DNA from: Desulfuromonadales bacterium
Lineage (GTDB): Bacteria > Desulfobacterota > Desulfuromonadia > Desulfuromonadales > JACZKF01
Assembly (NCBI GenBank): GCA_029289095.1
Contig: JARFUG010000002.1
Coordinates: 12,286 to 50,299 of the forward strand
Direction: 5' to 3'
Length of the DNA stretch: 38,014 nucleotides
The notes below the pieces were generated by a model that saw only the letters and a list, made by a program, of their open reading frames with translations, was not told the DNA's origin and did not search any database. Shown here one piece after another: positions 3,515 to 23,682 of this stretch (within the stretch, counting starts at the first letter, position 1; each line of letters begins with the position of its first letter). The translations under genes were made by a program, and so were the position numbers.

Positions 3515-5901
3515 GTCTTGAAGGCGCCCACCTCGTTTTCCAGGGTCCGCGTCTGCTGCGAGACGCTCTCCACCACCTTGTCGAGTTCGCCGGTTCGACG
3601 AGCGCTGTTCTCCGCAATGCTCCGGAGGCTTTTCAGGATCTCGACCATCTGGGCACTGCGGCGGTTCTGCTCGCGGGTCGCCTCGTCGATGCGCTCGATC
3701 ATGTCCCTGATCCGGTCCATCCCCTGGTGGATCTGCCGGCTCCCCTTGGCCTGCTCCTTGGTGCTCGTCTTTCCCTGCTGGGCGATCTCCTTCATCTCTT
3801 CTGCGGCCCGGGCGAGCTGGCGATTCCCCTGGGTCTGCTGATTGACCGCCGAAGAGATCTGCTCGAGCATCTGGGCCACCTGATTGATGGACGAGGTGAT
3901 CTGGCGGCTCCCCCTGGACTGCTCCTGGGTCGCACGGACAATCCCCTTCACCTGCTCCATGGCCTTCAAAGTGCTCTGCCGTATCTTTTCCAGCGCCTCA
4001 CCGGCCGTCCGGGAGCGCGCCACTTCGAGATGCACCCGTTGGCTCCCGGCGTTCATGACATCGACCGCTTCGCGGGTTCCATTCTGCAGATTTGCGATGA
4101 TGGCGGCAATCTCGCGGGTGGAGACCGCCGTTCGCTCGGCGAGCCCCCGAATCTCGTCGGCCACGACCGCAAAACCCTTGCCGTGTTCGCCGGCCTGGGC
4201 CGCGATGATGGCGGCGTTGAGCGCAAGAAGGCTCGTCTGGTCGGCAACCTCGTCGATGACAGTGAGGATCTTGCCGATCGATTTCGACTGGCTGCCCAGA
4301 TCCTGAATGACTTCCGTGGCGCGATCGACCGTCTCACGCAACGCGACGATTCCCGCCACGGTCTCGTCCACCGATTCCTTTCCCTTGCGCGCGTCGGCGG
4401 CGGCTTCTTCAGAGAGGTGGCTGGTGCGCTCGGCATTCTCCTCGATCTCCTTGATCGAGGCGTCGAGTTGCAGGATGGAAGAGGCGGTCGTTTCGGTCGA
4501 ATGGGAGAGGATCTCGACATTTTCCGCGATCTGCTGACTCGTAACCGACATCTCGGCAATGGAACTGGTCACTTCCTCAACAACGGCGAAGAGCTTTTCG
4601 ATCTGGCCGGCGATCTCCTCTGTCGTCGCTCCAAGCTCGAAAGTCGCCGAGGAGCTCAACTCAGCCGACTCGACCAGGGCGCCAGTGCTGGCGGCGATCC
4701 CCGAGATCGATTCCTGGATTCCGAGCATCCCGGAGTGACACTCCTGCAGCGCCTGCGACTGTTTTGTCCCTTCCTCCCTGAGCTCGCGTGAGGTGATCCG
4801 GATGCGCTCCGTCGTCCCGGCGAGATCCCGCGAGGCTTCGCGGGTGCGACCGACCATCCCTCTCATGCGCTCCAGGAAGCGGTTGAAGCTCGAGGCGAGG
4901 TCGCCAACCTCGTCGCGGGAGAGAACCGGAAGGTTGCGGGTGAGATCAGCGTCCCCTTCGGCAATCTCCTTGAGGTTGTCCACGACCTGCCCGAGAGGCT
5001 GAATGATTCTGCGCGAAAGGACGATACCGAACACGAGGGCGAGAACGCCGACGAAGGCGAGAATGAAGAACAGGATCTGGTGCAGCGTCCGTTGGTCGGC
5101 GATCAGGTCCGAGCCGTCTACCGCCAGGAGCATTCCGCTTTGAGCGTCGATCCCGAGCGATTCCAGCGACAGGGAAAAGGGGCGATCGCCCACCACGACC
5201 CTGTCCTGTTCCCCCGACTGCACGCGCGCCGTATCGAGGCCGCGCAGAAACGGTGCGGAAGCGGCGATGATCCTCTCTCCGTCGAAAAAGGCGACCTGGA
5301 GTGTGGCCATGAACTGCAGATGCTGGCCGAGGATCTCGTGGAGAAAATGATCGTTCAGAAGGGTGACGCCGACCAGGTGGCCGATGATTTCGGCGCCGTC
5401 GCGTACGGGAGCCGACGCGACGATGGCGGGGTGCCCGTCGAAACGCCCGATGATCCGGAAGTGCTCGCCCGCCAGGCTCGCCTGGACGGCCGGGTGGCTT
5501 CGTCCGTCGACCCTGTCGAGCCTCGTCCCGTGGCGCAACAGAAGTCCCCCATGGGCGTCGAGCACCTCAAAGATATCGAGATTGAACAGATCGTGCAGAT
5601 CGAAGACGAGGGGCTGAATCGCCTGTGAGCTCCCGGTCCGGATAGCCTCTCGGATCCCCTCCACGAAGGCCTGGTCCCTGGCGAGAAGCTGCACGTAGTT
5701 GGCCTTCTCCTTTTCGGCGTAGATGGTGCTGTGACCGACCAGGGTCTTCACCGACTCGATGCGAAACTCGAGGTCCCTTGCGAGTTGACGTTCGGCAAGG
5801 CCGGAGATGACGAGCATGGCGATCACAAGAGGAATAGCCGAGAGGCCGATCAGAGGAATGAGAATCTTCAAGCGAAGCTTCAGAGAAAAAAAAGAAATCA
5901 T
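3511..5901 (-). CDS. Methyl-accepting chemotaxis protein
   Basis: A 796-residue membrane chemoreceptor. A first transmembrane helix lies within the first 30 residues and is followed by a periplasmic sensing region of about 260 residues (Cache-like by size; ligand unknown). A second transmembrane helix is followed by a HAMP domain (RRIIQPL) and a long coiled-coil cytoplasmic domain. The signalling tip is recognisable around ALNAAIIAAQAGEHGKGFAV and VADEIRGLAERT, the site for CheA/CheW contact. The C-terminus lacks a CheR-binding pentapeptide. I chose the ATG at 5901 because the hydrophobic N-terminus starts directly after it. The frame stays open to 6009, but that extension looks non-coding. 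No che genes are nearby, so it would feed a chemosensory pathway encoded elsewhere. Its stop overlaps the start of the PhnP-like gene. Confidence 0.92.
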   Translation of the reverse strand: MISFFSLKLRLKILIPLIGLSAIPLVIAMLVISGLAERQLARDLEFRIESVKTLVGHSTIYAEKEKANYVQLLARDQAFVEGIREAIRTGSSQAIQPLVFDLHDLFNLDIFEVLDAHGGLLLRHGTRLDRVDGRSHPAVQASLAGEHFRIIGRFDGHPAIVASAPVRDGAEIIGHLVGVTLLNDHFLHEILGQHLQFMATLQVAFFDGERIIAASAPFLRGLDTARVQSGEQDRVVVGDRPFSLSLESLGIDAQSGMLLAVDGSDLIADQRTLHQILFFILAFVGVLALVFGIVLSRRIIQPLGQVVDNLKEIAEGDADLTRNLPVLSRDEVGDLASSFNRFLERMRGMVGRTREASRDLAGTTERIRITSRELREEGTKQSQALQECHSGMLGIQESISGIAASTGALVESAELSSSATFELGATTEEIAGQIEKLFAVVEEVTSSIAEMSVTSQQIAENVEILSHSTETTASSILQLDASIKEIEENAERTSHLSEEAAADARKGKESVDETVAGIVALRETVDRATEVIQDLGSQSKSIGKILTVIDEVADQTSLLALNAAIIAAQAGEHGKGFAVVADEIRGLAERTAVSTREIAAIIANLQNGTREAVDVMNAGSQRVHLEVARSRTAGEALEKIRQSTLKAMEQVKGIVRATQEQSRGSRQITSSINQVAQMLEQISSAVNQQTQGNRQLARAAEEMKEIAQQGKTSTKEQAKGSRQIHQGMDRIRDMIERIDEATREQNRRSAQMVEILKSLRSIAENSARRTGELDKVVESVSQQTRTLENEVGAFKT

Positions 5902-20399: not shown

Positions 20400-22259
20400 T
20401 TACCGCTCACAGCGTGCAGATGCTTTATCCCGTATGACGCGCATCAGATCGAGGGCGATGGCGACCCTGCCGAAAGGGGGCATGATGTACCACCCCGCCA
20501 CTCGCCCGCGCCCTGCCTCGATCAGTTCGCGGGCGATGGCCGTCCCCTCGGCGGCCCCTTCCTCTGCACGTTTGCCGCGCATGCGCCTGCGAACCTCATC
20601 GGGGAGGGTGATGCCGGGCACTTCGTTGTGCAGGAATTCGGCGTTGCGCTCGCTCACCAGGGGAAGGACGCCGACGAGGACGGGAATCCCCATCGGTCCC
20701 GTACGCTCCAGGAGCGCATCGAGGATCTTCGGCGAATAGACAGGCTGCGTCTGCACGAAACGCGCTCCTGCGGCGATCTTCTTCTCAAGTCGCCGCAACT
20801 GCCCCTCCATGCTCGCCATGTTCGGGTTGAAAGCCGCACCGAGAAGAAACGAAGTCGATCCTTCCAGTTCGGCTCCCAGCAGGCTGCGCCCCCCGTTCAG
20901 GGCCGAGAGGAGTTCGAGAAGCCCCACCGAGTTGAGGTCGAAGACGCTTGTCGCTCCGGCCTCCCCTCCCACCGAAACAGGATCTCCGGTCACCGCCAGC
21001 ACCGTCCGGATGCCGAGCAGATGGGCGCCCATCATCTCGGAGTGCAGGCCGATGAGGTTGCGGTCGCGGCAGGTGACGTGGACGATCACCTCCACCCCTG
21101 CTTCCTGCTGAATGCGGCTGGCGAGGGCGATGTTCCCCATGCGGATGCGGGCCAGGGGATTTTCAGCCAGACTGATGGCGTCGACTCCCGCCTCGGCAAG
21201 GGAGCGGGCGGCGCCAAGGAGCTTGCCGCAGTCGAGCCCCTTGGGAGGATCGAGCTCCACCGTGACGATCGGCCGCTTTCCCCACTCGTCGAGGAAGGTG
21301 TGCCGCGGCGCAGCACGCTCCTGCGCCGCAGGCGAAGGGGTCTCCACCCTGACAGGAGTGCGGCGGGGGGCGGGCCGGGCGCCGGCAAGAGCCTGGGCAA
21401 GAAGACGGATGTGCTCGGGGGTCGTGCCGCAGCACCCCCCCAACAGGGAAGCGCCGGCCGCCACCATCTCGCGTCCCCTCTCGGCGAAATACTCCGGAGT
21501 GGCCAGGTAGATGTAGCGCCCTTCCACATACTGGGGGAGACCGGAGTTGGGGAAAGCAGAAAGAGGGAGCGGCGAAGATGCGGCCAGGCGCTCCAGGATC
21601 TGCAGCATCTCGCGGGGACCGGCTCCGCAGTTAGCCCCCAGAACCGCGGCCCCCGCTTTTGCCAGACGCGTGGCGGCCTCCTCGGCGGAAACCCCCTCGC
21701 GAGTGCGCCCCTCCTGCAGAAAGGCCATCTGCGCCACTGCTGGCACCCCCAGGTCTTTTGCCAGAGTCAGGGCGATCTCCATGTCTTCGATCCGGGCGAA
21801 GGTCTCCAGGATAAAGAGGTCGACCCCCCCTTCGGCCAGGGCTTCCATCTGCTCCCGGAAGATCCCCTCCCTCTCGGCGCGGGGAATCTCGCCCCGCTCT
21901 CCCTTGGGGAGCAGAAGAGGGCCTACGGCCCCGGCGACGAAACGCTCGGCGCCGGCTGCCTTTCGCGCCAGGCGCGCTCCCGCCTCGTTGATGGCCCGAA
22001 CCTTGTGCTCAAGCCCGATGGCGCCCAGCCGCAGAGCGTTGGCGCCGAACGTGTTCGTCTCGAGCACCTGCGCTCCGGCAAGAGCATACTCGACGTGCAC
22101 ATCGGCCACCAACGAAGGCTGCACGAGGTTGAGGTGCTCGAAATTGACGTCGAGGGGGATCCCCCGGCTGTAGAGAAGCGTCCCCATGGCGCCATCGCCG
22201 ACGAGGACCTCCTCGCAGAGGCGCTGAAGAAAAAGACTGCTGGAAAAAGAAGGATTCAT
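20400..22259 (-). CDS. Bifunctional homocysteine S-methyltransferase / methylenetetrahydrofolate reductase
   Basis: A 619-residue fusion. The N-terminal half (about 10-290) is a homocysteine methyltransferase with zinc ligands C211 (GANCGAGP) and C276-C277 (GGCCGTTP), plus GDGAMGT near the start. A proline/alanine linker (about 295-325) leads to a methylenetetrahydrofolate reductase domain (about 335-600), with VTVELDPPKG at its start and FVQTQPVYS near the flavin site. Such YitJ-like fusions couple one-carbon supply to methionine synthesis. The cobalamin domains of MetH are absent. I chose the ATG at 22259, where the family N-terminus begins; upstream codons are not convincing and no strong Shine-Dalgarno is seen. 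No SAM riboswitch was recognised in the 77-base leader. Confidence 0.9.
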   Translation of the reverse strand: MNPSFSSSLFLQRLCEEVLVGDGAMGTLLYSRGIPLDVNFEHLNLVQPSLVADVHVEYALAGAQVLETNTFGANALRLGAIGLEHKVRAINEAGARLARKAAGAERFVAGAVGPLLLPKGERGEIPRAEREGIFREQMEALAEGGVDLFILETFARIEDMEIALTLAKDLGVPAVAQMAFLQEGRTREGVSAEEAATRLAKAGAAVLGANCGAGPREMLQILERLAASSPLPLSAFPNSGLPQYVEGRYIYLATPEYFAERGREMVAAGASLLGGCCGTTPEHIRLLAQALAGARPAPRRTPVRVETPSPAAQERAAPRHTFLDEWGKRPIVTVELDPPKGLDCGKLLGAARSLAEAGVDAISLAENPLARIRMGNIALASRIQQEAGVEVIVHVTCRDRNLIGLHSEMMGAHLLGIRTVLAVTGDPVSVGGEAGATSVFDLNSVGLLELLSALNGGRSLLGAELEGSTSFLLGAAFNPNMASMEGQLRRLEKKIAAGARFVQTQPVYSPKILDALLERTGPMGIPVLVGVLPLVSERNAEFLHNEVPGITLPDEVRRRMRGKRAEEGAAEGTAIARELIEAGRGRVAGWYIMPPFGRVAIALDLMRVIRDKASARCER

Positions 22260-22336: not shown

Positions 22337-22447
22337 GTAGGGGCGCGATTCATCGCGCCCTGATTTCATAGCGCCCCCGGAGGGCGGTGAGGTAACGAAG
22401 CGCCATGAATGGCCGACATCCCTGGGCGCCATGAATCGCGCCCCTAC
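22337..22447. repeat. REPIN-like element (two inverted REP hairpins)
   Basis: Two REP-like sequences face each other. The left (22337-22360) starts GTAG and folds into GGGCGCGA-TTCA-TCGCGCCC. The right (22424-22447) is its near-perfect reverse complement and ends CTAC. The outer 17 bases are identical inverted repeats. A 5' GTAG next to a hairpin is the hallmark of REPs moved by RAYT transposases, and the 111-base doublet matches the usual REPIN size. No RAYT gene is in the window. The right-hand GTAG, read on the minus strand, contains the stop codon of the haem sensor gene. Confidence 0.75.
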
Positions 22448-23682
22448 GCCGGGGGTTCCCGCAAAAAAGCGGTGTAGAATCGGTGCCCCTCGGAATCGGT
22501 CACCGAAAGGGAGAGTTCCAGGGGGACGGCAGAGCCGTCGCGCCGACGGCAGACGATGGAATGGGAGCGGTAGAGGAGTTTTTCTCCCTCCCTGCGCAGG
22601 TACGCCTCTGCCCCCGATTCCCGCAGGGAGACGCATTCGGGATGAATGAGATGATCGATGCTCATCCCCAGCACCTCTTTCTTGCCGTAGCCGAAGAGGC
22701 GCTCGGCCCTGCGATTGAAGAGGATGATCTGCCCATTGGCAAGGAAAGAAACGATGGCGTCGTGGGCGTTCTCGGTCAGGAGGCGGAAGCGCCTCTCGGA
22801 CTCTTCGAGGTGTTCGGTCTTCTCCCGCAGGTTGTCGATCATGTCGTTGAATCCGACGATCAGGGCGCCGATCTCGTCTCCTGTCCGGGACGGTATCTTC
22901 TCTTCGAGGCGCCCGGTGCGCACGATATCGCTCACGACGGAACCGAGCTGTGCGAGTGGGCGCGTGACGCTGAGCCGAATCAGCAGACCGAGACAGGTGA
23001 TCAGCGCCAGGAAAATCCCGCCCGTCATCAGCACCTCGGTACGCAAGTTAGCATAGATCTGGTGCGCAAGGCGCTCCATCGGAATCGTCACTGAAGCGGC
23101 GCCGATCACTTCACCGATCTGGTAATGGTAGGCGGGGTCCTCTTCTTCCGGGAAGAGAGCCTTGATGTAGTCGGGGGCATCTTCCGGATTGCCGTGACAC
23201 TCCAGGCAGCTCTCATCGGCCGTGAAGGCCTGCATGTAGCGAAAGACCCGCTCGCCGTCGATAACCGAGATCGAGTAGTATTCCTGCCTTTCGCGATCTT
23301 CGTAGAACGTCTGGAGGACGGCGGACTCGAAGGCGTCCGGGGCGTTTCGCGGGTTCCGGTAGCGGTCCGAGACCTGGCGGATGGCGTAGCCGATGTCCTG
23401 GCCGACCAAGGCGCCGATGCGGTTGGAGGCGACGACAGGGATGAGACCGTAGCGCTCCTCCGAGAGTTCCACCCGGCCGATCTGGTACTGGTTGGAGAGG
23501 TATTCGCGGGTATTGATCGCCTCGAAGGCGATGATGCGTGATTTCTCGACCGCCTCGCCGATGATGAATCGGGTCTGCTGGCGGTGGCTGAAGTAGGTCG
23601 AGAGCGCGAAGAACAGAAGGAGAATCAGGGCGATGACGAGATTGACCTTCGCCGTCAGACTCAAGTTGCGCATCGACGCCAT
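22444..23682 (-). CDS. Membrane haem-c sensor with HAMP and PAS domains, no output domain
   Basis: A 412-residue protein. Transmembrane helix one (about 12-30) is followed by a periplasmic domain of the DUF3365/Tll0287 type carrying a c-type haem motif CLECH (C159, C162, H163). A second helix (about 217-237), a HAMP linker (about 238-290) and one PAS domain (about 300-408) follow. In Geobacter relatives such haem-PAS sensors feed chemotaxis, kinase or diguanylate cyclase outputs. Here the protein ends in FLREPPA, just where a PAS domain would lead into an output module. The stop codon lies inside a REPIN-like element, so the gene may be truncated. The ATG has GAGGA upstream. It probably senses periplasmic redox state; a partner protein would be needed to signal. 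Confidence 0.85.
   Translation of the reverse strand: MASMRNLSLTAKVNLVIALILLLFFALSTYFSHRQQTRFIIGEAVEKSRIIAFEAINTREYLSNQYQIGRVELSEERYGLIPVVASNRIGALVGQDIGYAIRQVSDRYRNPRNAPDAFESAVLQTFYEDRERQEYYSISVIDGERVFRYMQAFTADESCLECHGNPEDAPDYIKALFPEEEDPAYHYQIGEVIGAASVTIPMERLAHQIYANLRTEVLMTGGIFLALITCLGLLIRLSVTRPLAQLGSVVSDIVRTGRLEEKIPSRTGDEIGALIVGFNDMIDNLREKTEHLEESERRFRLLTENAHDAIVSFLANGQIILFNRRAERLFGYGKKEVLGMSIDHLIHPECVSLRESGAEAYLRREGEKLLYRSHSIVCRRRDGSAVPLELSLSVTDSEGHRFYTAFLREPPA

Follow-up and report, generated by a model that had tools for sequence, protein, structure and literature searches.

A head-to-head REPIN at the 3' end of a haem sensor gene supplies the stop codon of an apparently full-length protein

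The interval 22337-22447 of the window, a stretch of 38,014 nucleotides from a Desulfuromonadales genome, is a REPIN, a head-to-head dimer of GTAG REPs, and one of its tags contains the stop codon of a haem sensor gene. We propose, with high confidence, that the sensor gene has a non-autonomous REPIN at its natural 3' end, that the terminal GTAG of this element provides the stop where the ancestral gene ended or no more than a few residues away, and that the protein has kept its full length. This proposal is built on the anatomy of the element, on the further copies found, on a protein length that does not change among relatives and on REP TAGs that recur as stops. A PAS-terminated haem sensor that looked like a casualty of the REPIN would then be intact, a conserved protein encoded in a gene pair that is itself conserved, which removes a false lead.

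Anatomy of the element

The left REP, GTAGGGGCGCGATTCATCGCGCCC, matches the repeat exactly, and the right REP, GTAGGGGCGCGATTCATGGCGCCC, is the same 24-mer on the opposite strand with one change (Table 1). The expected number of REP 24-mers in dinucleotide shuffles of the window is 0. The sequence-only reading had placed a REPIN-like element with exactly these borders, and the element is real: two inverted GTAG hairpins where none is expected by chance. It had also described an 8-bp hairpin at each end in inverted order. The order is right and the left hairpin is perfect, with 8 bp and a 4-nt loop or 9 bp and a 2-nt loop, but in the right one a G.G mismatch makes the 8-bp stem imperfect. As RNA, both ends of the REPIN are predicted to pair into a single long hairpin of -69 kcal/mol, and the inner arms of the spacer, ATTCATGGCGC and GCGCTATGAAAT, pair in the same predicted fold; by eye, these arms may be degenerate remnants of further REPs.

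REPINs have been described before (Bertels and Rainey 2011, PMC3116915), and what defines them is found here: a short palindrome with GTAG at one end, with one stem mismatch in the right copy, and two inverted copies with the tags outside. In the GTAG REP superfamily and its HH dimers (PMC3733652), a short-looped stem of 6-13 bp carries GTAG at one end, two copies occur 20-100 bp apart with GTAG outside, and the elements lie downstream of coding regions, where the TAG of the tag serves as the stop of flanking ORFs. The window element shares all of these features. It differs from the superfamily in the low copy number in its genome (18, at no more than 3 mismatches) and in that no cognate RAYT was found there; such an enzyme often accompanies a REP but is not a requirement for one.

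Table 1. Coordinates of the REPIN, its parts and the adjoining genes within the window
Feature	Position	Strand	Basis
Left REP: GTAG tag and perfect 8-9 bp hairpin	22337..22360	+	sequence, pattern scan
Inter-REP spacer	22361..22423	.	sequence, RNA fold
Right REP, inverted: GTAG tag and hairpin with one stem mismatch	22424..22447	-	sequence, pattern scan, fold
TAG stop codon of the sensor gene, within the GTAG of the right REP	22444..22446	-	sequence, ORF
Tll0287-like (CXXCH) - HAMP - PAS sensor gene, 412 aa, full length against orthologues	22444..23682	-	ORF, Pfam, orthologues
Homocysteine S-methyltransferase / MTHFR gene, 184 nt downstream of the sensor stop	20400..22259	-	Pfam, neighbour comparison

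The sensor gene and its orthologues

On the minus strand, the sensor gene ends in ...CGG GAA CCC CCG GCG TAG, and its TAG (22446-22444) is formed by bases 2-4 of the GTAG of the right REP, so that the minus-strand reading confirms what had been said of the right-hand tag. The sequence-only reading had put the end of the sensor at residue 407. The stop does fall in the REP, but residue 407 is where the Pfam match to the PAS domain ends, and the protein has 412 residues. Pfam recognizes a Tll0287-like domain, a HAMP domain and a PAS domain, the last matched to position 110 of 113, and the haem-c motif CLECH is located in the Tll0287-like part. A scan of the genome contigs for the sensor gave one distant match only.

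An output domain often comes after a PAS domain. Considering this, and that the stop codon falls inside the REP, the REPIN or a deletion between REPs may have cut the gene short, at the cost of a kinase, cyclase or chemotaxis output domain. We compared the sensor with 24 orthologues (L025-L048) of 42-69% identity from 20 other genera; one further locus, L049, was left out of the count because the gene is split in two pieces in its genome. All 24 proteins are 409-421 aa long and end right after the same PAS domain. None of them has the window's REP at its stop, the stops being their own TGA, TAG or TAA, and none has an output domain after PAS; thus, nothing was deleted in the window gene. The nearest orthologue (L025), of 411 aa, ends in ...FYTAILRETA before a TGA, compared with ...FYTAFLREPPA in the window sensor. 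Every listed orthologue has the CXXCH motif.

The neighbourhood agrees with the lengths. The homocysteine methyltransferase/MTHFR gene is the next gene after the sensor, on the same strand, in 19 of the 24 orthologue loci; the other five gave no methyltransferase match in the 0.8-1.5 kb of sequence examined. Orthologues free of the element that end at the same place had been named beforehand as the outcome that would refute truncation, and this is the outcome obtained. In the alignment with relatives, no full-length form continues into a kinase, cyclase or chemotaxis domain. On orthologue lengths and synteny, we rejected both the truncation of the sensor by the element and the deletion of an output domain between the repeats, which the sequence-only reading had offered as explanations and which now have next to no probability. 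Judged by its relatives, the sensor gene is intact and full length, with no output domain lost.

As an observation apart from the REPIN, the gene for a membrane haem-c (Tll0287-like) HAMP-PAS protein that lacks an output domain forms a conserved pair with the homocysteine methyltransferase/MTHFR gene that comes after it.

Copies in the genome and in the order

As the sequence-only reading had proposed, we searched for other copies of the element. At no more than 3 mismatches, 18 REP copies were found in the assembly (3.5 Mb, 154 contigs), compared with 0 for a reversed-pattern control. Several copies form head-to-head pairs, 0 to about 70 bp apart. A looser pattern finds 34 GTAG hairpins compared with 4 in its control. 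Dispersed genomic copies, the remaining feature of a REPIN, are therefore present, with 18 being low against the hundreds found in gammaproteobacteria. The same REP is present in 16 of 58 genomes of the order; it was not found in the single other genome of the same family examined. A literature text search for GTAGGGGCG returned no REP paper among the matches listed.

The strong RNA structure predicted directly after the stop, at -69 kcal/mol, would also be in line with a local terminator or mRNA hairpin of the operon in place of a mobile repeat. This is very improbable, since the same 24-mer, in head-to-head pairs, also accompanies unrelated genes and is found in other genomes, and orthologous operons lack the window's REP at that place.

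The GTAG hairpins found with the looser pattern include a second sub-type, GTAGGGGCGATCCTTGTGATCGCCC. At three loci of the genome (L055, L063 and L066), it is paired with GTAGGGGCGAACCTTGTGTTCGCCC or GTAGGGGCGAATCTTGTATTCGCCC as a second sub-type of REPIN. None of the listed copies of this sub-type provides a stop codon; the closest gene ends lie 12-17 nt ahead of it.

REP tags as stop codons

The sensor is one of several genes that end on a REP tag. A script picked the most gene-like frame beside each REP, the frames not being curated, and the REP TAG was the stop of the chosen frame in 9 of 19 copies in the genome of the window; by its translation, the plus-strand frame at one of these (L016) is spurious, which gives a conservative figure of 8 of 19. 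Seven such genes remain besides the sensor. Five have complete or near-complete C-terminal Pfam domains, namely a response regulator with a Fis-type HTH, threonine synthase, ThyX, PEBP and NuoF, while the Pfam matches of the other two (DUF748 and luciferase-like) do not bear on the C-terminus.

When the related genomes are included, the TAG is exactly the stop in 31 of 135 REPs, of which 103 have a nearby gene end; these counts include REPs common to the sister genomes G019 and G033 and are not independent. Any other single offset is found in at most 4 REPs, compared with 31 at the exact position, and 13 frames read on into the REP in other frames, compared with the 31 that stop at the TAG. 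Of 208 GTAGs that lie near gene ends but outside REPs in the same sequences, 38 are stops, compared with 31 of 103 (30%) for REPs; the rate for REP TAGs is only moderately above that of ordinary GTAGs. Di Nocera et al. (2013, PMC3733652) state that the termini of GTAG REPs are often the source of the TAG stop for the ORFs beside them. A REP that supplies the stop behind the sensor is an ordinary arrangement that has already been described, and the count of 31 among the 103 REPs that have a gene nearby indicates how often tags double as stops in the order.

These counts raise the question of which came first, the tag or the stop codon. It is possible that the REPIN inserted 3' of a GTAG already serving as the stop, as IS200/IS605 elements insert beside a target tetranucleotide, and that the gene supplied the tag. 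The excess at the exact TAG position and the preponderance of frames that stop there point in this direction, as do three REP-free orthologues (L030, L034 and L035) that stop with G-TAG, and ordinary GTAGs near gene ends, whose frequency as stops is of a similar order. Nevertheless, we regard such an origin as unlikely. The nearest orthologue ends in TGA, the counts include insertions common to sister genomes, and in published work GTAG is part of the REP and the guide for cleavage at CT or CA (PMC8266576). The sole usable empty site (G042 against G019) has TTAG one codon further, and at about 77-82% identity the two genomes are too diverged for an exact alignment that would fix the junction. 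Between G019 and G033, which are about 92% identical, the REPs compared outside a rearranged cluster are present in both genomes and gave no clean empty site. It is doubtful that REPINs of this GTAG family prefer sites 3' of existing G-TAG stops. If they did, stop codons would be tolerated landing sites that leave the gene end unchanged. The target-site question is testable in collections of close strains.

In the comparison of G042 (L150) with G019 (L121, sites 2193-2241 and 3744-3808), the hairpin of G042 is of a different REP type from that of G019 and G033. The differing REP types at these two orthologous sites suggest that REP sites are reused or converted.

Transposases and the proposed origin of the element

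The genome of the window has four PF01797 (Y1_Tnp) genes. We rejected them as the cognate RAYT; they are of another type, and no such REP occurs in the surrounding DNA examined. Three related genomes (G013, G019 and G033) have a RAYT of the HHRRSIRL...YDYS type that is surrounded by the same REPs as those of the window and whose gene itself ends on a REP TAG. Relatives of this RAYT were found in 27 of 58 genomes; it had no match in the window's genome, a 154-contig assembly in which a gap could hide it. The search for a RAYT that the sequence-only reading had suggested was fruitless in the genome itself and gave a REP-flanked enzyme in three relatives. Because the matching transposase is absent from the assembly, the REPINs of this genome are probably orphans, unless a gap between contigs conceals the RAYT.

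At most RAYT loci examined, a REP is found within the RAYT gene, in frame and mid-gene wherever the segment is readable. An in-frame REP insertion in the middle of the gene has been reported as unique to TnpA_REP subclass 2.4 (PMC6006769). The RAYTs of the relatives resemble this subclass: they are flanked by the REP in G013, G019 and G033, and the in-frame REP is present inside the RAYT genes that go with the window's REP and inside several others. The likeness to subclass 2.4 REPtrons is drawn from the insertion feature, and the enzyme differs from these REPtrons' in not being found in the window's genome.

We propose the following origin. The REPIN most likely inserted where the sensor gene naturally ends, between that gene and the methyltransferase gene downstream. 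Two possibilities follow for the stop codon: either the tag of the REPIN replaced an earlier stop, or a G-TAG that belonged to the gene was retained as the junction. The REPIN would once have been mobilised by a TnpA_REP (RAYT) like the REP-embedded enzyme of the relatives, and this enzyme would since have gone missing from the window's genome. The hairpin that starts at the stop may slow translation or shape the mRNA between both genes. In E. coli, translation is reported to be reduced by REPs that lie no more than 15 nt from a stop codon (Liang et al. 2015, as cited in PMC12306157), and a modest effect of the REPIN on sensor translation or mRNA is plausible for this reason. The window hairpin follows the stop directly, within the reported distance; it differs in that its REP belongs to another family in another organism.

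Two further observations concern the RAYT genes of the order. These genes hold REPs of their own local type in frame, as at L125:3990-4613 (minus strand), L118:2772-3338 and L123:13469-14035, with more cases at loci L130-L149. Between G033 (L118, C1:744000-762000) and G019 (L123, C1:1564000-1582000), at about 92% identity, a REP-flanked RAYT segment of about 627 bp is differently placed within this shared region, which looks like the outcome of recombination through REPs or of movement of the segment.
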